34,200 nucleotides of DNA, from positions 1 through 34,200 of the forward strand of contig JAJYTS010000012.1 of NCBI GenBank assembly GCA_021792935.1. The letters are read 5' to 3'. The stretch is from Bacillota bacterium. Its GTDB lineage: Bacteria; Bacillota; Sulfobacillia; Sulfobacillales; Sulfobacillaceae. Below the pieces are notes generated by a model. It saw nothing but the letters and a program-made list of their open reading frames with translations, ran no database searches and was not told the origin of the DNA. This document shows, one piece after another, positions 20,088 through 34,200 of the stretch. The position numbers and the translations under genes were made by a program. Numbering within the stretch: position 1 is the first letter of the stretch; the number at the start of each line of letters is the position of its first letter.

Positions 20088-20531
20088 TTAAACCTTTTTC
20101 CAGGCCTCGAATGGTTGCTGGCAACTCTCGCAATAAAAGATCGATCGGCAGAGGGTTGACCCAAATTGACTGCTGCGATGGGTGTCGGTGGATCCGCACA
20201 TGGGACACTCGACCAAATCGGAATGCAGTTGGGGTGGCGCGATGCCAGACACCCGTAGTTTTTCCCGTCCTTCGTCGGTCAAATCCTCCTGGGACCAGAT
20301 GCGGGTCATATCATAGTGCACATGAGAGGCGAGAGGCTTTAGCGCCCGCTGCACCCGCATCTTCATCCAGTCAAGACCGGGACAGCCGATAAAGGTGGGC
20401 TTTAGCGTGACGTCCGCCTCATCACCATCGAGGGAGAACTCAACAACCATGCCGAGGTCCACAATGCTTACGCCGGGCATCTCGGGGTCATCGACGGTCT
20501 TGAGTCGTTCCCACAATTCCTCTTGGGTCAT
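20088..20531 (-). CDS. paaD: Phenylacetyl-CoA epoxygenase subunit PaaD
   Basis: DUF59-like N-terminus (VDDPEMPGVSIVDLGMV...PTFIGCPGLDWM) plus C-terminal CPMCGS...CESC. Confidence 0.92.
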   Translation of the reverse strand: MTQEELWERLKTVDDPEMPGVSIVDLGMVVEFSLDGDEADVTLKPTFIGCPGLDWMKMRVQRALKPLASHVHYDMTRIWSQEDLTDEGREKLRVSGIAPPQLHSDLVECPMCGSTDTHRSSQFGSTLCRSIFYCESCQQPFEAWKKV

Positions 20532-20546
20532 CCTATGCCGCCTCCT

Positions 20547-21320
20547 TTACCACGCGGACGCTGGGGCGATGGTGCGCACGGAGCGCATTTCCGTTAGGAG
20601 AGCTTCCAGCTCGGCGGAATTGTCATGATGGCGTGCTTCGCGACGGGCGGGTCCAATATCACCCGGCCAAGACAATCCCCATTTGTGGAAGTCTTGGCGC
20701 ACAGTGGCTTCAAATTGACCGCGCATGGCGCTGGGCGCCAGCACACCTGCATCCCAAACCACCCAATGCTCATCGGGACCTGTCCATTCGAAAAGGTCGG
20801 GAAGGAGGGGCCAGACATCGGCCACCGCTTCATTAAGATACCCGAAGCTTTCGGAGCCGCCATACGCCATCGCTGCCATGACCGATCGTTGGTGGGCAAC
20901 ATGATAAACCTCTTCACGGTCCATTTTGCGAAGAGCGGCCACCAACGGTGGATAAGGGACGTGAGAGAGGGCGCTGCGGCGAATTTGGTCAAACACTTCG
21001 TAAAAATAGCGGCGGACTGACCACTCTGCCCAACCTTGCCGGGGCCTAGTGGTAAGCGCGGCATGATGCCAGTGGCTTGCGTCGCGCGAAAAAATGCGTT
21101 CATCAGCGGATGGTTGACCTAACTCCTCCAATAACTCGTAGAGGAGTTTGGCATGCCCCATTTCGTCCTGGCTGGTAGAGCTCAGGGCCAAATCCTCTTC
21201 CAGATCGGGAGCCAAGGCGAGCCATTCCGAACCTCGATGGCCGATCATCCACTCGTCGTCGGCCATGGGGATGAGCAAATGTTCTAAACTGCTTACTTGA
21301 TCATGGGTTGGACGTTCCAT
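20547..21320 (-). CDS. paaC: Phenylacetyl-CoA epoxygenase subunit PaaC
   Basis: MADDEWMIGHRGSEWLALAPDLEEDLALSSTSQDEMGHAKLLYELL is PaaC-type. Confidence 0.92.
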   Translation of the reverse strand: MERPTHDQVSSLEHLLIPMADDEWMIGHRGSEWLALAPDLEEDLALSSTSQDEMGHAKLLYELLEELGQPSADERIFSRDASHWHHAALTTRPRQGWAEWSVRRYFYEVFDQIRRSALSHVPYPPLVAALRKMDREEVYHVAHQRSVMAAMAYGGSESFGYLNEAVADVWPLLPDLFEWTGPDEHWVVWDAGVLAPSAMRGQFEATVRQDFHKWGLSWPGDIGPARREARHHDNSAELEALLTEMRSVRTIAPASAW

Positions 21321-21335
21321 GTATTAACCCCCCGA

Positions 21336-21668
21336 TTATTGTGCCGTCATGTTTTCCGATTCGCTAGGATGAAGCGCCTTCATCTTCTTCCACATGAGGC
21401 TATTGTCATAGCCGCTGGTTAGCCGATAGCCTTTGTCCTCACGGACTGGCGGAAGAGTTTCCGGGAAATTTCGAGCATGGAGAATTTGGTCCTGGGGAAC
21501 GACCCAGATGTCGAAGGCCGCGTCACGCCTAAAATAGGCTTCGCGAGCCATTTCCAAGGCGTCTTTGGCCGATGATGCGCGAACGCTGCCGACGTGAGTG
21601 GCAAAGCTTAGCGCTTCGGCTTGCGTGAAAATCTCATAAACCGGAACATCCTTAATATCTGCCGACAT
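21336..21668 (-). CDS. paaB: Phenylacetyl-CoA epoxygenase subunit PaaB
   Basis: VYEIFTQAEALSFATHVGSVRASSAKDALEMAREAYFRRDAAFDIWVVP. Confidence 0.92.
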   Translation of the reverse strand: MSADIKDVPVYEIFTQAEALSFATHVGSVRASSAKDALEMAREAYFRRDAAFDIWVVPQDQILHARNFPETLPPVREDKGYRLTSGYDNSLMWKKMKALHPSESENMTAQ

Positions 21669-21692
21669 TGGAGCACCTCCTGGATTTATTGG

Positions 21693-22643
21693 TTACGCGC
21701 CAACCGAGGCGTCAACTTCAACTGCGCGCATGCGTGCCTCACGAAACCACCGCAAGTCGTTGTGAGCCTGCCGGCGTAGTGCGATGCGTTCTTGTGATTT
21801 GGGACCGACGTTGTTGTACACTACGTTGGAGTACCATTCCCAGTCAGGATCGGTGTATGACCATACTCCGGTGTCTGGATCCTGCTTGGCGGCTGGGTCG
21901 GGAACCTTTAAACCGAGGGTCTTAATGCGGGGGATATAGCGGTTAATAAACTTTTGCCGCAATTCTTCATTAGTTTGCGACCGAATGCGGTAATACATCA
22001 TACGCTGAGAACCCTTGCCCATCTCACGAGGGCCAAAGAAGAACATCATGGTTGGCCACCAGCGATCGATAGCGCCTTGCAGCATTTCACGCTGTTCCTC
22101 TGTTCCGGATGCCAGAGCCAGGATAATCGCCTCGCCATACTGCATGTGGAAGCTTTCCTCCGCCACGATGCGCTTCAGCATGCGGCCATACGGGGCATAA
22201 GAGCTGGTGAGCAGGGAAGTTTGGGTAACGATAGCGCCTCCGTCAACCAGAAAGCTCACAACGCCAGCATCAGCCCACGTAGGCGCCGCCATATGAAACA
22301 CATTGTGAAACTTTACGCGCCCTTCAATGACATCGCTCATGAGGATTTCACGTCCGCGATTATAGGGGCGGCTAAGGTCTTCGGCTAAGCGCATGAGTAT
22401 TTGACCATGCCCAATCTCGTCCTGGATTTTCGCGTTTAACGCCAGCTTACGCTCAATGGTAGGAGCCTTGGTGACCCACTCCCGCTCCGGGTAGGCGCCC
22501 ATAATTTCACTAATCCCGTGCATGTGGATTTGCTTAATTAAGAGCTTGCGGTACTCCTCAGGCATCCAATCTGTCGCCTCGATAAGCTCTCCGGCCTCGA
22601 TGCGCTCCATGAAGCGTGTTTCCGCCGCTTCAGACATCGCCAT
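21693..22643 (-). CDS. paaA: Phenylacetyl-CoA epoxygenase catalytic subunit PaaA
   Basis: QDEIGHGQILMRLAEDL and IVAEESFHMQYGE diiron ligand motifs; ATG 22643 (MAMSEAAETRF) preceded by TTGGAGGG. Confidence 0.94.
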   Translation of the reverse strand: MAMSEAAETRFMERIEAGELIEATDWMPEEYRKLLIKQIHMHGISEIMGAYPEREWVTKAPTIERKLALNAKIQDEIGHGQILMRLAEDLSRPYNRGREILMSDVIEGRVKFHNVFHMAAPTWADAGVVSFLVDGGAIVTQTSLLTSSYAPYGRMLKRIVAEESFHMQYGEAIILALASGTEEQREMLQGAIDRWWPTMMFFFGPREMGKGSQRMMYYRIRSQTNEELRQKFINRYIPRIKTLGLKVPDPAAKQDPDTGVWSYTDPDWEWYSNVVYNNVGPKSQERIALRRQAHNDLRWFREARMRAVEVDASVGA

Positions 22644-22652
22644 CCCTCCAAT

Positions 22653-22668
22653 ACAAGCGCTTGCTTGT
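22653..22668. promoter_or_regulatory. Inverted repeat next to the paaA -10 element (candidate operator)
   Basis: ACAAGC-gctt-GCTTGT perfect 6+6 dyad; minus-strand TATAAT lies immediately upstream. Confidence 0.5.
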
Positions 22669-23179
22669 TTATTATATAATATCTTTAACGCTTTTACGGA
22701 AGAAATGCAAGAGCCAATCTCGTCTTTATCGTCGAAAAATTTTTGCAGGGAAGTGGGCAAGGGACGGCCTAATCCCTTGAAAACTGGTGGTTTTCGCGTC
22801 TTACGGCTTAGAGCCCGCAGAAACTATCTCGCTCAAGGATGCAAAAACTTTACGAAATACGTGAATATTATGGTCGCGCATTTCCTTTCCCGCCGATTCC
22901 GGGGGAGGTCAAGCGGTAGCCAGGTGCTATGGTGGCTGTCATCGCCGGACTTCCGCCATCAATGTGTGGGGTTCAGACTGATCGGGACCGTCATCGGGTC
23001 GTGGGCCATGACGAGTCGCGCACCACGGGGCTTGGCGCGACCGGTCATCGATGATGGGGAGCCTTGGAACAAAGACGGTTCCGACGTTGTTGGCGGGGCG
23101 CTTTTTGCATGAGCGGGGATGGGTGAGGATACGCTAATGGGTAGGGAGAGCGGGCTTGCGTCTCGCGTGGACCAGGTTC

Positions 23180-23193
23180 GTGATCACGATCAC
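23180..23193. promoter_or_regulatory. Crp/Fnr-type box upstream of the DUF2249 operon
   Basis: GTGAT-CACG-ATCAC perfect dyad; TACACT candidate -10 at 23215-23220. Confidence 0.6.
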
Positions 23194-23276: not shown

Positions 23277-23777
23277 ATGGAACCGGTGGTGGTGGAAGTA
23301 AAAAGTGTCCTAAGGCAGGGCCTTTCCCTATTGGGCCATATGATGGACACCGTCAATAAACTGGAACCGGGTCAAAGTCTGATTGTTAAGTCGACATTTA
23401 ACCCACGTCCGTTAATGTCGCAAATGAAGAGGCGCGGATATATCATTACTCAAGACAAGGTGGGCAAGATGCTTATTACCACCTTTCGGCCCGGTGAACC
23501 GGGTGCCGAGGTTCAAGGCGCGCCCGGTGAATCGACTGCCGACGTCCCTATTGAGGGGCCCGAAGAGTTCCTGGATAATCGCGGGCTGGTGCCGCCTGAG
23601 CCGATGCAGCGCACTCTGGCCAAGCTGGAGGAGATTCCGGTCGGAACCGTATTGAAAATACATAATGACCGCGTCCCGATTTTTCTTTTGGGCCAACTCG
23701 ATGATGACGGATATCCTTATGAAACAGCGGCCCAATCGGACGGATCGGCGATAGTCCGTATTTTAAAGGCTCATTAG
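23277..23777 (+). CDS. Double-DUF2249 domain protein
   Basis: C-half LDNRGLVPPEPMQRTLAKLEEIPVGTVLKIHNDRVPIFLLGQLDDDGY is canonical DUF2249; N-half VNKLEPGQSLIVKSTFNPRPLMSQMKRRGY is a second copy. Confidence 0.75.
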   Translation: MEPVVVEVKSVLRQGLSLLGHMMDTVNKLEPGQSLIVKSTFNPRPLMSQMKRRGYIITQDKVGKMLITTFRPGEPGAEVQGAPGESTADVPIEGPEEFLDNRGLVPPEPMQRTLAKLEEIPVGTVLKIHNDRVPIFLLGQLDDDGYPYETAAQSDGSAIVRILKAH

Positions 23778-23797
23778 CGAAACTAGGTGGGTTTTTC

Positions 23798-25066
23798 ATG
23801 GAACAGCGGCCAGACGCGCCGGCTTATAAACCAACGGTAAATATTGAGCAGGCTCCGCGAATGGCGGTGCCTTTCTTATATGTGTTGTCCGCGTACGGCT
23901 TCTTGGTAGCGGCCGCGATTTTCGTGATTCGGGAATCTCATTGGTTGGCGTTTGGCATTTGGGGCAACCCCATGGTGATACTCACCGTCCACCTGTTGAC
24001 AGTGGGGTTTTTGTCGATGACCGCAATGGGCGTTTTGAGCCAATGGATCCCGGTTGTATTTGACGTTGATGCTTTATCCTTGAAGCGGGCCACCATCGTT
24101 TTTTTAGGCTACTTGCTGGGGATTTTGGGGTTCGTGGTCAGTTTGTCCGCCCAACGGTGGTCTCTTCTAGCGGCAAGCGCCAGCTTGTTGGCGCTGGTCA
24201 TTATTGTGTGGAGCGGCTTGGTGATCCGCCAGCTTAATAGCTCAGCTAAACCTCGCGATTCCGTGTACCTTGGCATTGTGGCGGCGGTCATCGGATTTAA
24301 TTTGGTCTGGATATTCGGCGTATTTATGGCACTTTCATTTTTGGGTTGGTGGCCCGAATTCGCGGTGTTGCCGGTCCATATCGCGACGGCGCTGGTGGGG
24401 TGGCTAGGGCTTTTGGTGTTGTCGATTCAGCAAAAGCTTAATCCGATGTTTTCCATGTCGCGGGCAGAAGGGATTCGCTTGGGATTGCCCATTTATCCGG
24501 CAATGGCCGGCGTGCTGGCAGCCTGGTTATCTTTAGCCGTGGGTCAAATCGCGCTGAGGATCGGTGCCGGTCTTTGGGTCTTAGCCGCGATTATATCCGT
24601 CGTGCAATCTATTCGGGTGATTAGACAAGGGAAGGCCAAGGCATTTGATCCCGTGTTTTTAGGAGTCGGGGCGGCATGGATGTTGCTGACAGCGGGTGCC
24701 GTAATGGCGGCTTGGCTTAATCCCTTGGCCGTTCTGCTAGCGTTTTGGGGGCTGTTTACTTTAATATTTAGCTATCAATCTCGCATTTTCCCGTTTATCG
24801 TGGCGGTGGCGGTTGCCCGCCGTCTTCCCGGCCCCATCTATAAGGCCTTTTTTATGGCGCAGGCTATGCACGCGAAGAAGCAGCCGCTGGCAGTGGGACT
24901 GTTGGGAATCGTGGGTGCCCTCTTTATGATGGTAGGGCGGATTCAGCACCAGCCGTTCTGGATGGCTATGAGCGGCGGGGTGGCGTTGTTGATGGTGCTC
25001 TCACAAATTACTAACTTAACCATGGCCATGGTTCAGGGACGAAAGAAGGCACCGCAGCGCCCGTGA
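23798..25066 (+). CDS. Polytopic membrane protein resembling heme-copper oxidase subunit I-like/NnrS-like proteins (copy A)
   Basis: About 12 TM segments; VILTVHLLTVGFLSMTAMGVLSQWIPVVFDVD and LPVHIATALVGWLGLLVLSIQQKLNPMF. Confidence 0.6.
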   Translation: MEQRPDAPAYKPTVNIEQAPRMAVPFLYVLSAYGFLVAAAIFVIRESHWLAFGIWGNPMVILTVHLLTVGFLSMTAMGVLSQWIPVVFDVDALSLKRATIVFLGYLLGILGFVVSLSAQRWSLLAASASLLALVIIVWSGLVIRQLNSSAKPRDSVYLGIVAAVIGFNLVWIFGVFMALSFLGWWPEFAVLPVHIATALVGWLGLLVLSIQQKLNPMFSMSRAEGIRLGLPIYPAMAGVLAAWLSLAVGQIALRIGAGLWVLAAIISVVQSIRVIRQGKAKAFDPVFLGVGAAWMLLTAGAVMAAWLNPLAVLLAFWGLFTLIFSYQSRIFPFIVAVAVARRLPGPIYKAFFMAQAMHAKKQPLAVGLLGIVGALFMMVGRIQHQPFWMAMSGGVALLMVLSQITNLTMAMVQGRKKAPQRP

Positions 25067-26346
25067 CTTTCAAAAGGGTAAAAAATCTTAAGGTAGGCCG
25101 TGCCTTTACACACCACACCTCACCCATGGCGACGCCGTTCTTGTTTTGGGCCACTGGTGTCATAGGGATTGTGGCAGGCTTGGGGCGGCTGGTCTCCGCA
25201 CGCCAACTTCTCTTGTTGGGGGTGGTGGGTTCCGGCCCCATTATCTCCGCCACCCATCTTTTTACTTTGGCCGGCTTCACCATGGTGATGATGGGGGCTT
25301 TATATCAACTAACCCCGGTGTTGTTTGACTGTGATCCCCTTCCCTTCTGGCGTGTATTTGTTCAGTGGGCGCTATATTCGGCCGGGGTGGGGTTGTTTGT
25401 TATCAGCCTGTCAGGCCATTGGTTTATCGGCACGTTGACGGGCGCGGCCGGTCTGGTGGCGGGATTAATCCTTTACGTGATTAATTTTTGGGAACGGGTG
25501 CGCCGTCGTTCCACCTGGAATCTGACCGCTTGGTTTTTTATCTCCGCGGTTTTTTACTTAAGCCTCACCATTATCGTGGGTGGCCTGGTGGCGATTCACT
25601 ACACTACCGGGTTGCTGCCGTTCCCCAATGAATTGGCCATTCATCTTACCATCGCGTTAGGCGGATGGTTCGGCTTGCTCATGGTGGGCGCCAGTTTTCG
25701 CCTCTGGAATATGTTTGGGCGTCTGCACCATGAGCCGCGCTATTGGGCCTTGACCGCAATTTTGATCCATTTGGCCATTTGGGTAATGGTGGCCGGAGAT
25801 CTGAGCCAATTGTCATGGCTTAGCCGGGTAGGATGGGGGCTTCAGTTGGCCGCCTTTATCTTTTATAGTATTGATGTCGCCCAAGGAGGACTGTTCGATC
25901 GGCGCACCATGAAAGATCCCGCCCTGCGCGCTTTATTCGCCGCCATGTTTTTCTTGCTCCTATGGGAGGTATTGGGGAGTGCGGGCCTTTTTGGCCAAGT
26001 GCGGGGCGTATGGATTGAGGCGTTGTTAGCCTACGGATTAGGCTGGGTCGGGATGACTTTCATGGGATTCGCGCAGAAGATTGTCCCGTTTATTATCTGG
26101 CTGCACCGCTACGCCTACGTGCGGGGCAAGGGGAAAATGCCACGGCTTGACGATATTTTGATACCGGCTTGGGCGTATGGGCCGATTGTGGGCGCGACCG
26201 CGGGTCTCGTAGGGCTTCTTTTGGGATTGTGGGCTCACTGGGACTGGCTTTTGACGGCGGGCATTATTTTAGAAATGGCGGGATGGTTGTCATTGTTGGC
26301 CGTAGGAGTGCGAGTGGTTCGAGGTCCGCATCGCCGGCCACAATAG
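25063..26346 (+). CDS. Polytopic membrane protein resembling heme-copper oxidase subunit I-like/NnrS-like proteins (copy B)
   Basis: ISATHLFTLAGFTMVMMGALYQLTPVLFDCD, LAIHLTIALGGWFGLLMVGASFRLWNMF, QKIVPFIIWLHRYA; GTG start overlaps copy A stop (GTGA). Confidence 0.65.
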   Translation: MTFKRVKNLKVGRAFTHHTSPMATPFLFWATGVIGIVAGLGRLVSARQLLLLGVVGSGPIISATHLFTLAGFTMVMMGALYQLTPVLFDCDPLPFWRVFVQWALYSAGVGLFVISLSGHWFIGTLTGAAGLVAGLILYVINFWERVRRRSTWNLTAWFFISAVFYLSLTIIVGGLVAIHYTTGLLPFPNELAIHLTIALGGWFGLLMVGASFRLWNMFGRLHHEPRYWALTAILIHLAIWVMVAGDLSQLSWLSRVGWGLQLAAFIFYSIDVAQGGLFDRRTMKDPALRALFAAMFFLLLWEVLGSAGLFGQVRGVWIEALLAYGLGWVGMTFMGFAQKIVPFIIWLHRYAYVRGKGKMPRLDDILIPAWAYGPIVGATAGLVGLLLGLWAHWDWLLTAGIILEMAGWLSLLAVGVRVVRGPHRRPQ

Positions 26347-26366
26347 CGGCGGATGAGATTCTGATT

Positions 26367-26380
26367 GTGACCGGCATCAC
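26367..26380. promoter_or_regulatory. Crp/Fnr-type box upstream of the orphan ORF
   Basis: TGTGA-CCGGCA-TCAC; imperfect inner dyad. Confidence 0.45.
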
Positions 26381-26427
26381 GATTGTTTCTCGCATTGCTG
26401 GTTAAGGTGTTGTTAGGGGAAAAGGCG

Positions 26428-26775
26428 GTGGTCTCTTTGGTTCGACTGAAGTCGACAAAATGGATCCACGAGGCATGGGAATTGCGCTTTGCGGTGCGTG
26501 AAGGCGTCTATTTTCTGGAGGACTATCCGGTGCGCGTGACGCATCTCGCCTATACCGACGATATGGAGTTGCGCCAGGCCTTAGAGACGGTAGTCACCGG
26601 ATTCTTGCACCGTCATATGCGGCGGGGGGCGGTGCCGCCTCACGCCATGGTCATGGACTGGGCTCGGGCTCATCGCCTTTCCGAGGGGGCGGCTCCCGAG
26701 GTGATTAGCGCCTGCGCCAAATTGAACAGTACGCTATTGCATGGCGTCGGACCGTCTATCTCCAATTACTTTTGA
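26428..26775 (+). CDS. Hypothetical protein, no recognised family
   Basis: Open frame with natural composition between the HCO-like pair and DUF2249; GTG 26428 (MVSLVRLKSTKWIHEAWELRF) behind aggggaaaag. Confidence 0.55.
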   Translation: MVSLVRLKSTKWIHEAWELRFAVREGVYFLEDYPVRVTHLAYTDDMELRQALETVVTGFLHRHMRRGAVPPHAMVMDWARAHRLSEGAAPEVISACAKLNSTLLHGVGPSISNYF

Positions 26776-26832
26776 CCCGGAATATCGTGGCGATGGGTTG
26801 ATGCCGATTGGGCACACACGTATACTAGCCCA

Positions 26833-27072
26833 TTGAGGGAGGTGACGGAGTTGAAGGAATTGGATGTGCGTCCTATTTTGGAGGCTGGCGGCGAGCCGTT
26901 TAATGACATTATGGAGTTTGTGGACGCTCTCGAACCTGGGGAATCCTTTCGCATTTGGGCCACTTTTAAGCCCGAGCCTCTCTTTGCCATCATGGCGTCC
27001 AAGGGCTACCGGGGCGAGGCCCAGGAGACGGAGGACGGGAGTTGGGCGGTTGATTTCGCGCCGGAGGATTAA
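26833..27072 (+). CDS. Single DUF2249 domain protein
   Basis: ELDVRPILEAGGEPFNDIMEFVDALEPGESFRIWATFKPEPLFAIMASKGY. Confidence 0.8.
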   Translation: MREVTELKELDVRPILEAGGEPFNDIMEFVDALEPGESFRIWATFKPEPLFAIMASKGYRGEAQETEDGSWAVDFAPED

Positions 27073-27153
27073 CCGTAATGAGAAAAGGGGCGAGAGAAAA
27101 CGATCGTTCGCACTGGGCACCAACTGGCCATATAATGGTGCGGGGGTGAACAT

Positions 27154-27810
27154 ATGCCGCTAAATGATCTTCAGATACCGCTATTAAAACTGATCCCGGA
27201 TGCCAGCCGTTCTGACATTCTCGTGATCCGACGCTACCAGTCGGGGGAGCGAATATTTGAGCAAGACGACCCCACCACCGGACTATGGTTTGTGATGGAC
27301 GGGCGCGTCGCGATTGAACGCATTGGAGCCGATGGCAATTTAACCACGACTGGGGTGTGGATTGCTGGGGATATTGTTGGCATTGCGGGTCTGTGGGATC
27401 GTTCCGGCTATCCAGGGTCCGCGCGGGCTCTTTCCAACCCCACCGTGATGGGCTGGATTGCGCGCGAAGTCGTTTTGCGCTTGCACCAAGAGTTACCGCA
27501 GTTTGGGTTGGAGATTAGCCGCATGTTGGCGGAGCGGCTGCGATATGTGCAGGAAGCGGTCTCGAGCCGCCAAGGGCGTCCAATCGTCAATCAGGTGGCG
27601 TCGGTATTGTTGACGCTATCGTCGCGCATGGGTCCACTCATTGCATTGACGCATGAAGATTTGGCGCATATTATTGGCACCCATCGTGAAACGGTCAGCC
27701 GCGCTTTGCAGGAACTGACCCGCGAGGGTGCTGTTAATTCTCGTCACGGTGCCATCGATATCGTTGACCGCCATAAGCTGGAAGATTGGAGTATGGCGTC
27801 TGACAAGTAG
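27154..27810 (+). CDS. Crp/Fnr-family transcriptional regulator
   Basis: cNMP-binding-like fold (GERIFEQDDPTTGLWFVMDGRVAIERIG) and HTH LTHEDLAHIIGTHRETVSRALQEL. Confidence 0.95.
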   Translation: MPLNDLQIPLLKLIPDASRSDILVIRRYQSGERIFEQDDPTTGLWFVMDGRVAIERIGADGNLTTTGVWIAGDIVGIAGLWDRSGYPGSARALSNPTVMGWIAREVVLRLHQELPQFGLEISRMLAERLRYVQEAVSSRQGRPIVNQVASVLLTLSSRMGPLIALTHEDLAHIIGTHRETVSRALQELTREGAVNSRHGAIDIVDRHKLEDWSMASDK

Positions 27811-27858: not shown

Positions 27859-27872
27859 GTGACAACCGTCAC
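27859..27872. promoter_or_regulatory. Crp/Fnr-type box upstream of tpx
   Basis: GTGAC-AACC-GTCAC perfect dyad; TATGAT at 27895-27900 places it at -41.5 of a predicted start at 27907. Confidence 0.65.
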
Positions 27873-27996
27873 AAAAATTGCCCATATCTGGATCTATGAT
27901 GACAGCATCCTTAGATCCTGGGCTATGTTCTTGCGTTGGTTGGTGGTAGGGCTTTTCTGGGTAGGGAAATGACGATGTGATGATGGAGGCGGAATG

Positions 27997-28527
27997 ATGG
28001 CTGAAACTGAAATCCCGCGTTTTGTGACGTTTACGGGTGCGCGCATGGCTATCGAAGGACCCCAAATTCGAGTGGGCGATGCAGCCCCTGGATTTTCTTT
28101 GGTCAACGGTAAGCTGGAAGCGGTGTCGCTGAACGATTTTCAAGGTCGGATACTGCTCTTGGCGGCGGTGCCTTCACTGGACACGGGCGTTTGTGACATG
28201 GAAACGCGCCGTTTTGAAAAAGCGGTAGCGGAGTTGGATGACCGCATCGCCTATGTGACTGTGTCGATGGATCTTCCGTTTGCGCAAGCGCGGTGGTGTG
28301 GTGCCGCCGAGGCTCATCGCGTCGTGACCCTAAGCGATTACAAGCACCATCTTTTTGGCAAGGACTATGGGGTATATATTCCCGAGTTGGGACTCTTGGC
28401 GCGGTCGGTGTTTGTGATTGATGCTAAAGGCGTGGTGCGGTACGTGGAAATCGTGCCGGAAGTCACCCATGAGCCTAACTACGATGCGGCCCTAAATAAG
28501 GCTAAGGAATTGGCGGCGGCGTTGTAA
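27997..28527 (+). CDS. tpx: Thiol peroxidase (Tpx-type peroxiredoxin)
   Basis: VGDAAPGFSLVN, VPSLDTGVCDMETRRF peroxidatic Cys motif, YVTVSMDLPFAQARWC. Confidence 0.92.
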   Translation: MAETEIPRFVTFTGARMAIEGPQIRVGDAAPGFSLVNGKLEAVSLNDFQGRILLLAAVPSLDTGVCDMETRRFEKAVAELDDRIAYVTVSMDLPFAQARWCGAAEAHRVVTLSDYKHHLFGKDYGVYIPELGLLARSVFVIDAKGVVRYVEIVPEVTHEPNYDAALNKAKELAAAL

Positions 28528-28695: not shown

Positions 28696-29130
28696 ATGGA
28701 TTTGACCTTTCACGTGCGGGCGGATTGGAACGGGGTCGGTAAAGAAGGCGAGGGAAAGATGCAGGCTGGGGGACAGGACATCGCCTACAGCGCCCCGGCT
28801 AGTATGGGAGGAAAGGGCGTCGGCACCAATCCGGAGGAATTATTGCTCTCAGGGGTGACAGCCTGTTACAGCGGCACTCTTATGCGCATTCTAAGCCGTC
28901 AGGGACTTCCCGGTTCGGCGGTCACCATTGACACCGAGGGCCTCATCACCGATTATCCCGGGCATGCTGTATTTTCCGGCATTACTGTTAATCCCACCAT
29001 TGTGGGGGGCGACCCGTCGCGCTTGCAGGATTATGAGGCGGCGGCGGAGTCGGCTCGTGAGCAGTGCTTTATTGGACGGGTGGTGCGGGACTATTTGCGA
29101 TACGCGGTAGGAAAAGTCATGGTACAGTAG
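28696..29130 (+). CDS. OsmC/Ohr family peroxidase-like protein
   Basis: GTNPEELLLSGVTACYSGTLMRILSRQGL; RBS aaaggaggag. Confidence 0.9.
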   Translation: MDLTFHVRADWNGVGKEGEGKMQAGGQDIAYSAPASMGGKGVGTNPEELLLSGVTACYSGTLMRILSRQGLPGSAVTIDTEGLITDYPGHAVFSGITVNPTIVGGDPSRLQDYEAAAESAREQCFIGRVVRDYLRYAVGKVMVQ

Positions 29131-29772: not shown

Positions 29773-30031
29773 AATGGGTCCTTAAGAGGCTTTGGTGTCG
29801 GAGGGTGGCTTGGAGGTGGGCCGGTGTCTGTCTGTGGATGTTGAGAGAAGGACTTGACACATCACATGGCCAGGGCGGCAGCATATGGGGGTCCATTTTT
29901 TTTGACTGGAAGTTGGTCTCCCTGGGGGAAGAGCCCGTATAATTTTGCTTTGGCAACCAAGCGCGGGGGCCTGGCGGAATGCGCGCTACGATGACAACGT
30001 ACCTGGGCTCGTTTCAGGAAAGGGGCTAACG

Positions 30032-31072
30032 ATGGGGCTGACAGATAAACGATTTTATACAGCGTATTTTGCTTCCGTGATGGCAACCGGGATTGTGTCG
30101 ACCGCCATGTTCATCTATCACCAGATTTGGCTGTCAGATATATTGTTGGCGATTGGCGTGGGATTATACCTGGTGTTGTGGTACGCCTATGCTGGGCGGC
30201 TGGTTCTAGCCCCCCGGGAAATGTGGCGGAATCTTACCGATCCTTCTACGACTTTTGGGTTTTTTACCATCGTCGCGGGTTCCAATGTTTTAGCGGTGCG
30301 CTTCATGCTGGCGCACTGGGTGGGGCTCTCGGTGGTGTTTGGCACCATTGGTCTCGTGAGCTGGGCTGTCTTGTTCTATACGGTGATGACCGCGTTGATT
30401 ACGGGACCGGCGGCCGATCTTACCTCCGTCAACGGTGGGTGGCTCATTGCCATTGTGGCCGAACAGTCTATCGCCACCTATCTTGCCTCGATGATTGGCG
30501 TGGTCCCTGGCCATGTGACCATCTTGTTTTTGGCCTCTGCCACTTTTTGGGCCATGGGCCTCATCCTTTATCTCGTGTTTATCGCCTTTATTATGAATCG
30601 CCTCTTGTTTCAGACCATAGACCCGCAAGACATGCAGCCTCCTTACTGGATTAATATGGGCGCCACCGCGATCAGCGTGTTGGCTAGCTCCCGGTTATTG
30701 GCGGTCCCCGTACATACCACCATCTTGGTAACCTTGCGCCCCTTTTTGGAAGGCGGCACTCTGATGTTTTGGGCCTGGGGCAGCTGGTGGATCCCGCTGT
30801 TGGTGATCTTGGGGATTTGGAAGTACTGGCGGGGGCACGAGCCTATCGCCTATCATCCCGCCCAATGGAGCATTGTCTTCCCGTTGGGAATGTACGGGAC
30901 CGCCACCACCGCCATGTCGAAGATTCAAGGCTTTCTCCCTTTGCACTGGGTCGGCGAGGGCTTCGCTTGGATTTCCCTGGGGGCATGGACCTTGGTGGCG
31001 GTATTGGGACTGAGACATATGCGGCAGCGAAGCCAAGTGCCCGCCAACCAGGCGCTGTCGTTGGAACAGTAG
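30032..31072 (+). CDS. TDT-family transporter (TehA/Mae1/SLAC1-like)
   Basis: About 10 TM segments; FYTAYFASVMATGIVSTA, QWSIVFPLGMYGTAT; ATG 30032 after gaaaggggc. Confidence 0.75.
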   Translation: MGLTDKRFYTAYFASVMATGIVSTAMFIYHQIWLSDILLAIGVGLYLVLWYAYAGRLVLAPREMWRNLTDPSTTFGFFTIVAGSNVLAVRFMLAHWVGLSVVFGTIGLVSWAVLFYTVMTALITGPAADLTSVNGGWLIAIVAEQSIATYLASMIGVVPGHVTILFLASATFWAMGLILYLVFIAFIMNRLLFQTIDPQDMQPPYWINMGATAISVLASSRLLAVPVHTTILVTLRPFLEGGTLMFWAWGSWWIPLLVILGIWKYWRGHEPIAYHPAQWSIVFPLGMYGTATTAMSKIQGFLPLHWVGEGFAWISLGAWTLVAVLGLRHMRQRSQVPANQALSLEQ

Positions 31073-31145: not shown

Positions 31146-31580
31146 TCAAATATCTTCAGCTTTGCCGATTCGCGTGAGAGAGATTGTCCGTGCCGTTTCG
31201 CCCCGGTCGTCATTGACGACGGTGATGCGATCAACGCCCTTGACACTGTTGTAGCAAGGGCCGCCTGAAATGACCAGCCGCCAGCTGCCCTCGCCCAGCG
31301 AGTGGCCGTTCTGGGTGTCGGCCAGAAGAGCCTGGGGAAGGGCGCTTAAGGGTAGAACCGCCACGAAGTCACCCGACGCCACTTCGACGTAGCGCGCTTC
31401 CTTCGTGGGTCCTGCCAGCCGCACCAAGTCGTCCATTCGGTATCCAGACCACGCTTGATCCGGCTTAGTCCATCCTTCCAAACAGACAAAATCTTCGATG
31501 CGCTCGATGCGTTGGGATGCTAGGGCATCGGGCGGAATATCAAATGGTCTTTCGACCAGACCGGTGAGCGTCAGCGCCAT
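31146..31580 (-). CDS. Standalone sulfite-oxidase-type molybdopterin-binding domain protein
   Basis: FVCLEGWTKPDQAWSGYRMDDLVRLAGPTKEARYVEVASGDFVAVLPLSAL...WRLVISGGPCYNSVKGVDRITVVND follows the Oxidored_molyb (SUOX family) pattern including the Cys in FVCLEGW. Confidence 0.8.
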   Translation of the reverse strand: MALTLTGLVERPFDIPPDALASQRIERIEDFVCLEGWTKPDQAWSGYRMDDLVRLAGPTKEARYVEVASGDFVAVLPLSALPQALLADTQNGHSLGEGSWRLVISGGPCYNSVKGVDRITVVNDDRGETARTISLTRIGKAEDI

Positions 31581-31599: not shown

Positions 31600-32397
31600 T
31601 TACGCCTTATCGTCGGCGTTGGCCTCTCTCTTGCGCTTGCGGTTGTATGCCCACTTTTTCAGAGGATCGTAATAACGGTCCGCAACCCGCTCTTTAAGCG
31701 GGATGATGGCGTTGTCCGTGATGTGAATACCCTGCGGGCATACCTCGGTGCAGCAGCCGGTGACATTGCACATGGCAATGCCGGCGTCGCCGTGCAAGAG
31801 GGGGATGCGGTCCCCGGCATCCATTGGGTGCATCTCGTGTGAGGCAATTAGTGTCATAAACCGTGGCCCATAGTACTTATTGAACCCTGCATGTTCGCGC
31901 AATACGTGGCACGTGTCTTGACACAAGAAGCACTCGATGCATTTGTGGAACTCCTTGACCCGTTCAACATCTTCGGGATACATGGTGAATGGCGCCTGCT
32001 GGGCCGGCTTAAACGGCGGAATAGTCTTAGCGACTTCATAATTCCAGTTGACGTCGGTGACAAGATCCTTAATCAAGGGAAAAGCTTTCATGGGCGCCAC
32101 GTTAAGGGCTTTGCCGGTAAATTCGTCGACGCGGGTCTTGCACAAGAGCCGCGGCCGCCCGTTAATCTCGGCGCTGCAGGAGCCGCAGTGGGCGGCCTTG
32201 CAGTTCCATCGCACGGCTAAATCGGGCTGCTCATGTTCTTGAACCCATCGTACAGCGTCTAACACCACCATGCCCGGGGTGTAGGGCACTCGATAGGGCT
32301 GGGGGCTTAATTCCTCTTTGGTGTCACCCCGCATGATGCTTAAATCAATCCATGTCCGCTCGCTCTCAGCGGTAGGTGTTTCAACACTTGTTGCCAC
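31600..32397 (-). CDS. Succinate dehydrogenase/fumarate reductase iron-sulfur subunit-like protein
   Basis: 2Fe-2S CKAAHCGSC...C; CIECFLCQDTCHV; CNVTGCCTEVCPQGI; GTG start at 32397 behind caggaggagac. Confidence 0.9.
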   Translation of the reverse strand: MATSVETPTAESERTWIDLSIMRGDTKEELSPQPYRVPYTPGMVVLDAVRWVQEHEQPDLAVRWNCKAAHCGSCSAEINGRPRLLCKTRVDEFTGKALNVAPMKAFPLIKDLVTDVNWNYEVAKTIPPFKPAQQAPFTMYPEDVERVKEFHKCIECFLCQDTCHVLREHAGFNKYYGPRFMTLIASHEMHPMDAGDRIPLLHGDAGIAMCNVTGCCTEVCPQGIHITDNAIIPLKERVADRYYDPLKKWAYNRKRKREANADDKA

Positions 32398-32476
32398 AGG
32401 GTCTCCTCCTGGCACTTAAATTATGCTAGTAATTATATTAACCGCCGTCTATCCTAAAGAGCAAGCCTTTTGCATG

Positions 32477-32494
32477 CTGTGACTTCTGTCACAG
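32477..32494. promoter_or_regulatory. Crp/Fnr-type box in the divergent SdhB-like / methyltransferase intergenic region
   Basis: CTGTGAC-TTCT-GTCACAG perfect 18-bp dyad matching TGTGA-N6-TCACA. Confidence 0.75.
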
Positions 32495-32557
32495 TACTGG
32501 CCGCACGTTTGCGGGTAAATGGCTATGGTGCGGAGTGCTAGCGAGGGGAGTACGGTT

Positions 32558-33514
32558 TTGGCGAAAATTTCCGAGTTCAGCGGTAATCGCTTGATTGAAG
32601 CCGGTATAGGGGACACGGAGCAGACCCGCGAGGTCCCCGCAGGGCGTCACGCATTTTGGCTGGCCCAAGGGCAAGCCATCTGGACAGGTTCAGACGGCGT
32701 GGGCATTCAGTGGGAGGCGGCAGATACTGTCTATGAGGTATCGGGGCCGGGAGTGCTGAAAGTCATGGAGGCGTGCCGCTATCTGTGGTTGGAGGGATCT
32801 GATCCCTTAGGGTTTGGGTTGCGCGCTATCTTGTACCGTACGATAATGGAACCGCGCAATTATGGGGTGGGCAAGGCTTTGGCGCAAGGGCTCAGTTTGC
32901 CCTCCGATACGCTATGGGCCGATATTGGAACCGGAACCGGGGCTATGGTGAAAGCGCTGCAGGAGTTGTCGGCGCCGCCTGGTCTGATTGTGGGCGTTGA
33001 TCAGTCGGTGCGAATGATGAGCCAAGCCCTGGACGAGGCTGTACCGACAGCGCCTTCCTGGTTTGTGGCGCACGATGTCTTAACGCTGAGATGGCCGAAA
33101 GATTTCTTGGATGGAATTAGCGCCCTTTTGCTGTTTCATTTGGTTGACAAAATAGATGACCTCATCGCGCGATTGTATGCCGCCTTAAAGCCGGGAGCAA
33201 TGTTAATTTATGCGGTAAGTTCGGATTCCAATCCATTTGTTCGTATGATTATGCGGCAGTTAGAAGGGCCCGGTGATTTTTTTAAGCAGGGACAGCAAAA
33301 AATTCGGGAAAGTGTGCTGGCGGCAGGATTTCAGATTGTCCGTTCCGATCCCTACCGCGATGAAATCGCTTTGGAAAATCCCGACGCCATGCGGACTCTC
33401 ATTTCCAGTATCGGAGGACCGGCCAGTCGCGGTATTCGTGCCGATATTGTGCCGCCCAAGAGCATTCAACGGATATTCGATCTGGTCTGGGCGCAGAAAC
33501 CCCCAGCCAGTTAA
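32558..33514 (+). CDS. Class I SAM-dependent methyltransferase with ~100 aa N-terminal extension
   Basis: Motif I LWADIGTGTGAMVKAL, VDQSVRMMSQA; TTG 32558 behind gaggggag; ORF track start 32519. Confidence 0.8.
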   Translation: MAKISEFSGNRLIEAGIGDTEQTREVPAGRHAFWLAQGQAIWTGSDGVGIQWEAADTVYEVSGPGVLKVMEACRYLWLEGSDPLGFGLRAILYRTIMEPRNYGVGKALAQGLSLPSDTLWADIGTGTGAMVKALQELSAPPGLIVGVDQSVRMMSQALDEAVPTAPSWFVAHDVLTLRWPKDFLDGISALLLFHLVDKIDDLIARLYAALKPGAMLIYAVSSDSNPFVRMIMRQLEGPGDFFKQGQQKIRESVLAAGFQIVRSDPYRDEIALENPDAMRTLISSIGGPASRGIRADIVPPKSIQRIFDLVWAQKPPAS

Positions 33515-33528
33515 GGAGGTGCAAGCTG

Positions 33529-34200
33529 TTGGAAAACGTGTTTGACCGTTTTAACCGGCCACTTCGCGATTTGAGAATATCTTTGACCGACCGTTGCAAC
33601 TTTCGTTGTGTCTATTGCATGCCTAAAGAAATCTTCGGCACCCCGACCCACTTTATGCCCGTTGAGGAAGCGATGTCCCGCGCCGAGATTGTCACCATTG
33701 TGGGGGCGCTCAGCCGGCTGGGGGTTCGCAAGGTGCGTCTCACTGGCGGAGAGCCTCTACTACGGGACGACATTGTTCCCTTAGTGGCCGACTTGAAGCA
33801 AATTCCCGGTATTGAGGATATTGCCGTCACCACGAACGGGTCCACGTTAACCCGGGCCCGGGCGGCCAGTCTTAAAGAGGCCGGGTTGAGCCGAATCACG
33901 GTAAGCTTGGACTCTTTGGATGCCGAGCGCTTCGGCGCTATCAACGGGGTTGGATTTACGCCGGCCCGGGTATTGAAAGCGATTGACAATGCCGCCGAGG
34001 CGGGGCTCAGCCCCGTCAAAATTAACGCCGTAATCAAGCGGGGCATGAATGAGGTGGACATTGTGCCTTTGGCGGAGCACTTCCGGTTTACCGGGCACAC
34101 AGTCCGCTTTATTGAGTTTATGGATGTCGGAACCTCCAATGGCTGGGAACTTAAAGATGTGGTATCGGCCGCAGAAATGCTGAAGATGATTGGAGAGCGC
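33529..34200 (+). CDS. moaA: GTP 3',8-cyclase MoaA (partial, cut by window end)
   Basis: DLRISLTDRCNFRCVYCMPKE radical-SAM motif and VRKVRLTGGEPLLRDDI; RBS aaggaggt; frame open to 34200. Confidence 0.95.
   Translation, partial: MENVFDRFNRPLRDLRISLTDRCNFRCVYCMPKEIFGTPTHFMPVEEAMSRAEIVTIVGALSRLGVRKVRLTGGEPLLRDDIVPLVADLKQIPGIEDIAVTTNGSTLTRARAASLKEAGLSRITVSLDSLDAERFGAINGVGFTPARVLKAIDNAAEAGLSPVKINAVIKRGMNEVDIVPLAEHFRFTGHTVRFIEFMDVGTSNGWELKDVVSAAEMLKMIGER

Follow-up and report, generated by a model that had tools for sequence, protein, structure and literature searches.

A tandem pair of membrane proteins with a predicted heme-copper oxidase fold and an operator in common with narGHJI in Sulfobacillus-type acidophiles

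The stretch considered here (the window) is the 34,200 nt of contig JAJYTS010000012.1 from a Bacillota bacterium of the Sulfobacillales (GCA_021792935.1), contig C3 of a 2.0-Mb genome that is ~60% complete. Between positions 23277 and 27810 it carries a module of genes, all intact and all on the plus strand, for a double DUF2249 protein, two proteins with 12 transmembrane helices (TM), an orphan open reading frame (ORF), a single DUF2249 protein, and a Crp/Fnr regulator. The same set had been proposed in a preliminary description of the sequence, and Pfam confirms both DUF2249 proteins and the regulator. The two membrane proteins, here called HCOH-A and HCOH-B, appear to have the fold of heme-copper oxidase (HCO) catalytic subunits, with two invariant His. 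A palindromic Crp-type operator, GTGAYNNNNRTCAC, lies upstream of both the module and narG, and module and nar are therefore predicted to form one Crp regulon. New here are the coupled A/B pair, its want of a family model, and its connection to narGHJI through the operator. The module consists of the following:

23180–23193, no strand: Crp-type operator GTGATCACGATCAC, an exact GTGAYNNNNRTCAC, 83 bp 5' of the first ATG
23277–23777, + strand: double DUF2249 protein, 166 aa from the ATG at 23277; PF10006 E = 3.5e-22, 78.5 bits (cut-off 29.5)
23798–25066, + strand: HCOH-A, predicted 12-TM HCO-fold protein, 422 aa; His 65 and 194 invariant
25063–26346, + strand: HCOH-B, predicted 12-TM HCO-fold protein, 427 aa; GTG start overlapping the stop of HCOH-A
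26367–26380, no strand: operator GTGACCGGCATCAC, before ORF130
26383–26775, + strand: orphan ORF (ORF130), conserved, 130 aa; box-preceded relatives in six genomes
26833–27072, + strand: single DUF2249 protein; PF10006 E = 5.8e-17, 61.7 bits (cut-off 29.5)
27154–27810, + strand: Crp/Fnr regulator; HTH_Crp_2 PF13545 E = 2.3e-17, PF00027 E = 5.3e-13, PDB 4ev0 E = 9e-19

The stop codon of HCOH-A and the start of HCOH-B share the bases GTGA, and the two genes are translationally coupled; their products probably form a heterodimer. In the double DUF2249 protein it is the second domain that passes the PF10006 cut-off, the first (23343–23444) being weak at 27 bits against 29.5. This protein matched no solved structural relative of DUF2249, and there is some likeness of DUF2249 to TusA (PF01206, E = 1.3e-5). 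The orphan ORF matched no Pfam or NCBIfam family, and its true start is probably ~45 bases downstream of the annotated one.

Neither membrane protein has a Pfam match above any cut-off or an NCBIfam match, and HCOH-A finds no sequence match in the PDB, as a single sequence or as a profile. The HCO likeness suggested in the preliminary description comes instead from profiles of relatives and from predicted structures. A profile of B-type relatives matches CcoN of the cbb3 oxidase (3mk7_A) at E = 1.7e-5, and six of 29 B-type relatives match Pfam COX1 (best E 7e-7). The AlphaFold2 models (pLDDT 89.7 for HCOH-A, 90.7 for HCOH-B) have as their best Foldseek matches nitric oxide reductase (NOR) and cbb3 catalytic subunits in the case of HCOH-A (E ~1e-4, probability 1.0), and CcoN, the closest solved fold, in that of HCOH-B (TM-score 0.75, E ~4e-6). 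A 12-TM HCO fold of the catalytic-subunit type is well supported by these models for both. The two are paralogs (hhalign E = 4e-46), and a tree of 67 family members within the order has a well separated A clade, a B clade, and further clades C and D. Clade C homologs (L058:6537–7844, L025:6472–7788, and others) have operators of their own in several species and are closest in style to rhizobial relatives (YKIVPFLTW motif).

In one alignment TM1–4 of HCOH-B fall on TM9–12 of CcoN and H65 on CcoN H347, a low-spin heme b ligand. A circular permutation of the HCO chain, as this could be read, is unsupported: units 1 and 2 of HCOH-B both resemble HCO unit 3 best, and the register of its chain relative to HCO is ambiguous for that reason. 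Identity with NnrS, which the preliminary description had considered, is rejected. Profile comparison by hhalign gives only E = 0.26–0.35, and none of 61 genomes has an NnrS (PF05940) match above the curated cut-off; two of the 30 A members match weakly, with a best E of 5e-4. NnrS resembles the pair in its HCO-like character, its heme (predicted for the pair), its NO (nitric oxide) regulons, and a similar TM2 spacing (H-x4-GF-x6-G-x6-P), but its further conserved motifs are missing here. From these comparisons the pair is assigned to the “HCO homology” kind, not to NnrS proper. Of the families named beforehand, then, DUF2249 is found above its cut-off, COX1 in some B-type relatives, and NnrS above its cut-off in none of the 61 genomes.

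A catalytic subunit of an HCO or NOR has six His ligands (two for the low-spin heme, one for the high-spin heme, three for CuB/FeB), and six canonical His are indeed present in the 31 true HCOs aligned here. In this family just two are invariant across the clades. H65 in TM2 and H194 in TM6 are present in all 30 A and all 17 B proteins aligned; their positions hold the only fully conserved His in clades C and D, and both are kept in relatives from Ensifer, Mesorhizobium, Arcobacter, Thermus, and Haloferax. In HCOH-B one more His is conserved, His348 toward the end of TM10. Four His motifs quoted in the preliminary description are exact as written and contain H65 and H194 of both proteins, and the conserved His do sit, as it had supposed, in helices that line the cofactors. 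Lys and Arg are distributed 22:3 (HCOH-A) and 24:3 (HCOH-B) in favor of the inside, with the N-terminus inside, and this places H65 and H194 in the first turns of helices starting at the outer face. One bis-His, low-spin heme b is accordingly to be expected in each protein, between TM2 and TM6 and near the outer face. The pore corresponding to this TM2–TM6 pocket is empty in true oxidases.

A terminal oxidase or NOR is rejected on ligands. The pair, unlike CcoN, has no heme b3 ligand, no CuB ligands, and no CcoO/CcoP, and no CcoO/CcoP, NorC, or CuA partner was found among the Pfam-scanned ORFs that neighbor it. Lacking a ligand for a high-spin heme, ligands for CuB/FeB, and a cytochrome c or CuA partner, it would be unable to reduce O2 or NO as an oxidase or NOR does, in agreement with the earlier suggestion that the unit may not be a terminal oxidase. 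The genome itself (60% complete) has no detected COX1-family oxidase or NOR match, though most relatives have several.

The operator is far more frequent than expected. The window has four copies of the palindrome GTGAYNNNNRTCAC where 0.04 would be expected, and the entire genome has 12 (control pattern, four), one third of them thus within these 34 kb. Across 41 sequences around the family (650 kb) there are 96 sites, against one to three in Markov shuffles. When GTGA-N6-TCAC was searched without forcing Y and R, 154 of 167 sites still had both, and T preceded GTGA in 43%. HCOH-A is preceded by a site at 26 of its 30 loci, and narG has one within 2 kb on its 5' side at 13 of the 16 nar loci, with ~0.2 expected in the nar upstream regions (null rate 0.007 per kb). 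The box is also close upstream of the double DUF2249 gene (19 genomes), HCOH genes (nine genomes), and the orphan ORF (six). Other genes that it closely precedes encode thiol peroxidase, a cupin, a DUF59 (FeS_assembly_P) protein, and the pair of SdhB-like protein and methyltransferase. An FNR-type box (TTGAY-N4-RTCAA) was also considered; it is barely above chance at two mismatches (50 against 36.6), and several of its matches are the GTGA box.

One separate contig (L177:1028–4896, genome G014), apart from the HCOH pair, packs four operators into 3.5 kb, alongside cupin, DUF59, methyltransferase, and ORF130 relatives. The other sites in the own genome are mostly uninformative, save one (G000:C77:13836–13849, L131) at a radical SAM/SPASM gene resembling a heme-synthesis (NirJ/AhbD-like) enzyme.

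The neighboring Crp protein is a candidate reader of this operator. It has no Cys, and its recognition helix reads HRETVSR; in a comparison of HcpR regulators, Arg at the base-reading position of a helix of this type goes with GTGA half-sites (PMC1274295). The HcpR motif itself, wTGTGAnnnnnnTCACAw, belongs to nitrogen-oxide stress regulons (PMC1274295). Operator (TGTGA-N6-TCACA), helix Arg, and nitrogen-oxide genes are thus common to both, while the targets here are nar, DUF2249, and HCOH genes.

Conservation of the neighborhood, expected if the module is a unit, was found. The membrane pair is present in 38 and 41 of 61 relatives, and the order DUF2249-A-B-(ORF/DUF2249/Crp) recurs across Sulfobacillus and its order; the co-occurrence of these genes is not due to chance. 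Named genomes with HCOH-A relatives are all Sulfobacillus, while metagenome-assembled genomes are mostly labeled Bacillota. The own genome has narG on contig C6, and so do 18 of the 34 genomes of the order in which the gene was sought have a copy, one of them truncated. In S. harzensis (L194) a single run reads DUF2249-A-B-ORF-DUF2249-Crp-(MarR-like)-OsmC-(hemerythrin-like)-narGHJI, and one contig in another relative (L187) has the module followed by SdhB-like, methyltransferase, MoaA, and hemerythrin-like genes and then narGHJI. Other species repeat the arrangement methyltransferase, MoaA-like, small genes, narGHJI, and the window ends inside moaA, the point at which nar follows in relatives. 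Relatives of the cNOR subunit NorB are found in three of 42 genomes, and within the order in one of 34 (G035). A published comparison reports NarGHJI in just one of the Sulfobacillus genomes that it covered (AMDSBA3), with no further denitrification genes there (PMC4378227).

In the window the module runs on beyond 27810 into thiol peroxidase and OsmC-like genes, and the common operator ties genes up to the window end:

27859–27872, no strand: operator GTGACAACCGTCAC, before thiol peroxidase
27994–28527, + strand: thiol peroxidase (Tpx), NF001808 above cut-off; box 5' of Tpx in three genomes
28696–29130, + strand: OsmC-like peroxiredoxin, TIGR03563 E = 2.6e-19, under cut-off; adjoins the module in several species (cluster of 10 loci)
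31600–32415, - strand: SdhB-like 2Fe-2S/4Fe-4S protein, PF13085 E = 3.3e-24; divergent from the methyltransferase
32479–32492, no strand: operator GTGACTTCTGTCAC, between the SdhB-like and methyltransferase genes
32519–33514, + strand: class I methyltransferase, PF08241 E = 1.5e-9; 5' of moaA-narGHJI in relatives (synteny)
33529–34200, + strand: MoaA-like radical SAM protein (molybdenum cofactor), PF04055 E = 3.5e-34, PF06463; cut by the contig end

Three other features of the region may be mentioned. A SLAC1/TehA-type anion channel (29945–31072), a candidate nitrate/nitrite channel, has relatives (L185:11999–13006, L187:7621–8709, L190:8680–9885) that recur beside the module or right after narI. 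A small protein on the minus strand (31146–31580), adjoining the SdhB-like gene, consists of a sulfite oxidase molybdopterin-binding domain alone (PF00174). Divergent from the module is a phenylacetyl-CoA epoxidase-like cluster (20088–22760, minus strand) with two PaaA_PaaC proteins and, by eye, a PaaB-like protein and a PaaD-like one with a C-terminal CxxC zinc-ribbon-like part; being on the opposite strand, it was rejected as part of the module.

Outside the order, a tblastn search of plasmids with HCOH-B finds mostly “hypothetical” proteins, in Ensifer, Sinorhizobium, Mesorhizobium, Rhizobium, haloarchaea, Aliarcobacter, and Thermus. Neighborhoods were inspected at six of these loci. The relative adjoins DUF2249 genes in Ensifer, Sinorhizobium, and Mesorhizobium, where nor, nirK, or nosZ clusters containing NnrS and Crp/Fnr genes enclose or flank it. 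The Thermus locus combines it with narGHI, with DUF2249 genes, and with a gene of the DUF59 (metal-sulfur assembly) type, while the Haloferax one has a DUF2249 gene nearby, together with a gene annotated “cbb3-type subunit I”. The sole notable neighbor in Aliarcobacter is a metal-sulfur assembly gene. Relatives in denitrification clusters align over their full length with HCOH-A (E = 4e-25) and HCOH-B (E = 9e-62). Like the pair, these relatives have both His, and most are beside DUF2249 or DUF59 genes; they differ in being single-copy at each locus, several of them beside nor, nirK, nosZ, or narGHI, and in having only ~22–28% identity to HCOH-B (full-length tblastn).

With 12 TM, an HCO fold, two conserved His, probably one heme, and denitrification and DUF2249 neighborhoods, the pair resembles the three-unit, two-His type of HCO homolog (HCOH). 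It differs in being a tandem, coupled A/B set in one operon, with its own Crp, an operator shared with nar, and no Pfam or NCBIfam model. Two-His, 12-TM HCO homologs and their denitrification context were reportedly described by Pei, Li, Kinch, and Grishin (Pei et al. 2014, Protein Sci 23:1220, doi 10.1002/pro.2503). To this extent the module is not undescribed, as the preliminary description had it, and DrpA/DrpB mutants have been published as well (PMC6282519); the coupled pair and the nar-shared operator do stand as new. The association of DUF2249 and HCO-like proteins with denitrification, also proposed there, is seen in the plasmid loci and in the literature (PMC11218638, PMC6282519), the former paper citing Pei et al. 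2014 for the DUF2249-HCO link.

The closest functional evidence is from Thermus thermophilus, where single and multi-domain DUF2249 proteins are likewise tied to narGHI. Loss of drpA/drpB alters nar expression and leaves nitrate reductase activity at about a tenth (PMC6282519). That work places DrpA on the outside and DrpB on the inside or at the membrane; how they communicate was left open (PMC6282519). The system is not the same in all respects: the double DUF2249 protein of the window is without DUF1858, and Thermus uses DnrS/DnrT, not this Crp. In strain JL-18 an HCO homolog lies three genes 3' of a drpB-type gene. The same strain has a 144-aa hypothetical protein (L143:6810–7244) between drpB-type and protoglobin genes that matches the last part of COX1 and is likely a single-unit HCO homolog.

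Because of the Thermus phenotypes and the JL-18 gene arrangement, a heme accessory or relay role is favored here. The reading we hold, tentatively, is that the pair is an accessory heme b unit without catalytic activity, sensing or relaying redox or NO state within the nitrate-respiration regulon of Sulfobacillus-type acidophiles. The neighboring Crp would switch on module and narGHJI via GTGAYNNNNRTCAC; the heme between H65 and H194 would give up or take on an electron or a ligand (quinol, NO) near the outer face; its state would be passed on to the cytoplasmic DUF2249 proteins; and nitrate reductase would be made, matured, and protected solely while its respiration is safe.

Several points weigh against this. 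Heme binding is predicted, for the pair as for close family members, and Crp and operator are matched by proximity and recognition-helix logic. The narGHJI genes of the own genome have no operator within 2 kb upstream. Finally, members of the family persist in 13 of the order's 16 genomes without narG (Fisher p = 0.09), so that the role would not be strictly tied to NarG; a strict dependence of the module on narG is not significant by this test.

A bolder form of the accessory reading, and a doubtful one, makes the paired HCO homologs the missing membrane part of a widespread nitrate/NO sensory pathway from alphaproteobacteria to haloarchaea, in which the TM2–TM6 heme would detect NO or the redox state of quinol on the outer side, and DUF2249 proteins, receiving this signal through the membrane, would set nar expression and maturation. 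If true, it would answer how DrpA on the outside talks to DrpB on the inside in Thermus.

It is somewhat unlikely, but consistent with much of the same evidence, that the module protects against NO or nitrosative stress, with hemes that bind NO, hand it on, or repair metal centers that have been nitrosylated, as proposed for NnrS, and with the DUF2249, DUF59, cupin, and peroxidase proteins as repair crew. The one NOR relative among 34 genomes of the order would leave NO from acid nitrite in need of another sink; the common operator, which equals the HcpR motif, extends to genes for thiol peroxidase, an OsmC-like protein, and FeS assembly; and the module is kept where narG is missing. Yet a heme held by two His does not usually admit ligands, the closest family is one other than NnrS, and there is no known NO phenotype.

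A maturation factor, in which the pair and the DUF2249/DUF59 proteins supply electrons, sulfur, or heme for NarGHI assembly (Mo cofactor, FeS clusters, heme b), is unlikely. It would fit the Thermus drpAB mutants, which make NarG but with activity down to a tenth (PMC6282519), the TusA-like character of DUF2249, and the FeS_assembly_P, MoaA, and radical SAM genes in the same locus or with the common operator. However, the module exists without narG, and most nar systems (e.g., that of E. coli) mature without the module. Less probable again is an HCO-fold transporter or structural membrane protein without cofactor, its His structural: the heme is deduced from the His pattern, and homology to the HCO fold is no proof of a retained cofactor, but across phyla exactly two His stay unchanged, in helices that in HCOs border the cofactor sites, while the rest has diverged to ~20–30% identity. 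A degenerate oxidase remnant being lost would account for the missing catalytic ligands but is hardly credible, and already disfavored, given intact frames, ~420 aa conserved across order and phyla, and a fixed operon and operator.

Taken with its operator, the module suggests that nitrate respiration has a support system that has received little study. The “hypothetical” oxidase look-alikes and DUF2249 proteins of denitrifiers in several phyla are here tied to a nitrate-respiration regulon by an operator, beyond mere neighborhood. In extreme acidophiles nitrite gives rise to NO non-enzymatically, and almost no NO reductase was found; the pair with its predicted hemes, the DUF2249 proteins, Crp, and the box make up a defined, testable unit in such organisms. 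The pair is also a candidate for the unexplained transmembrane step of the Thermus DrpA/DrpB model.

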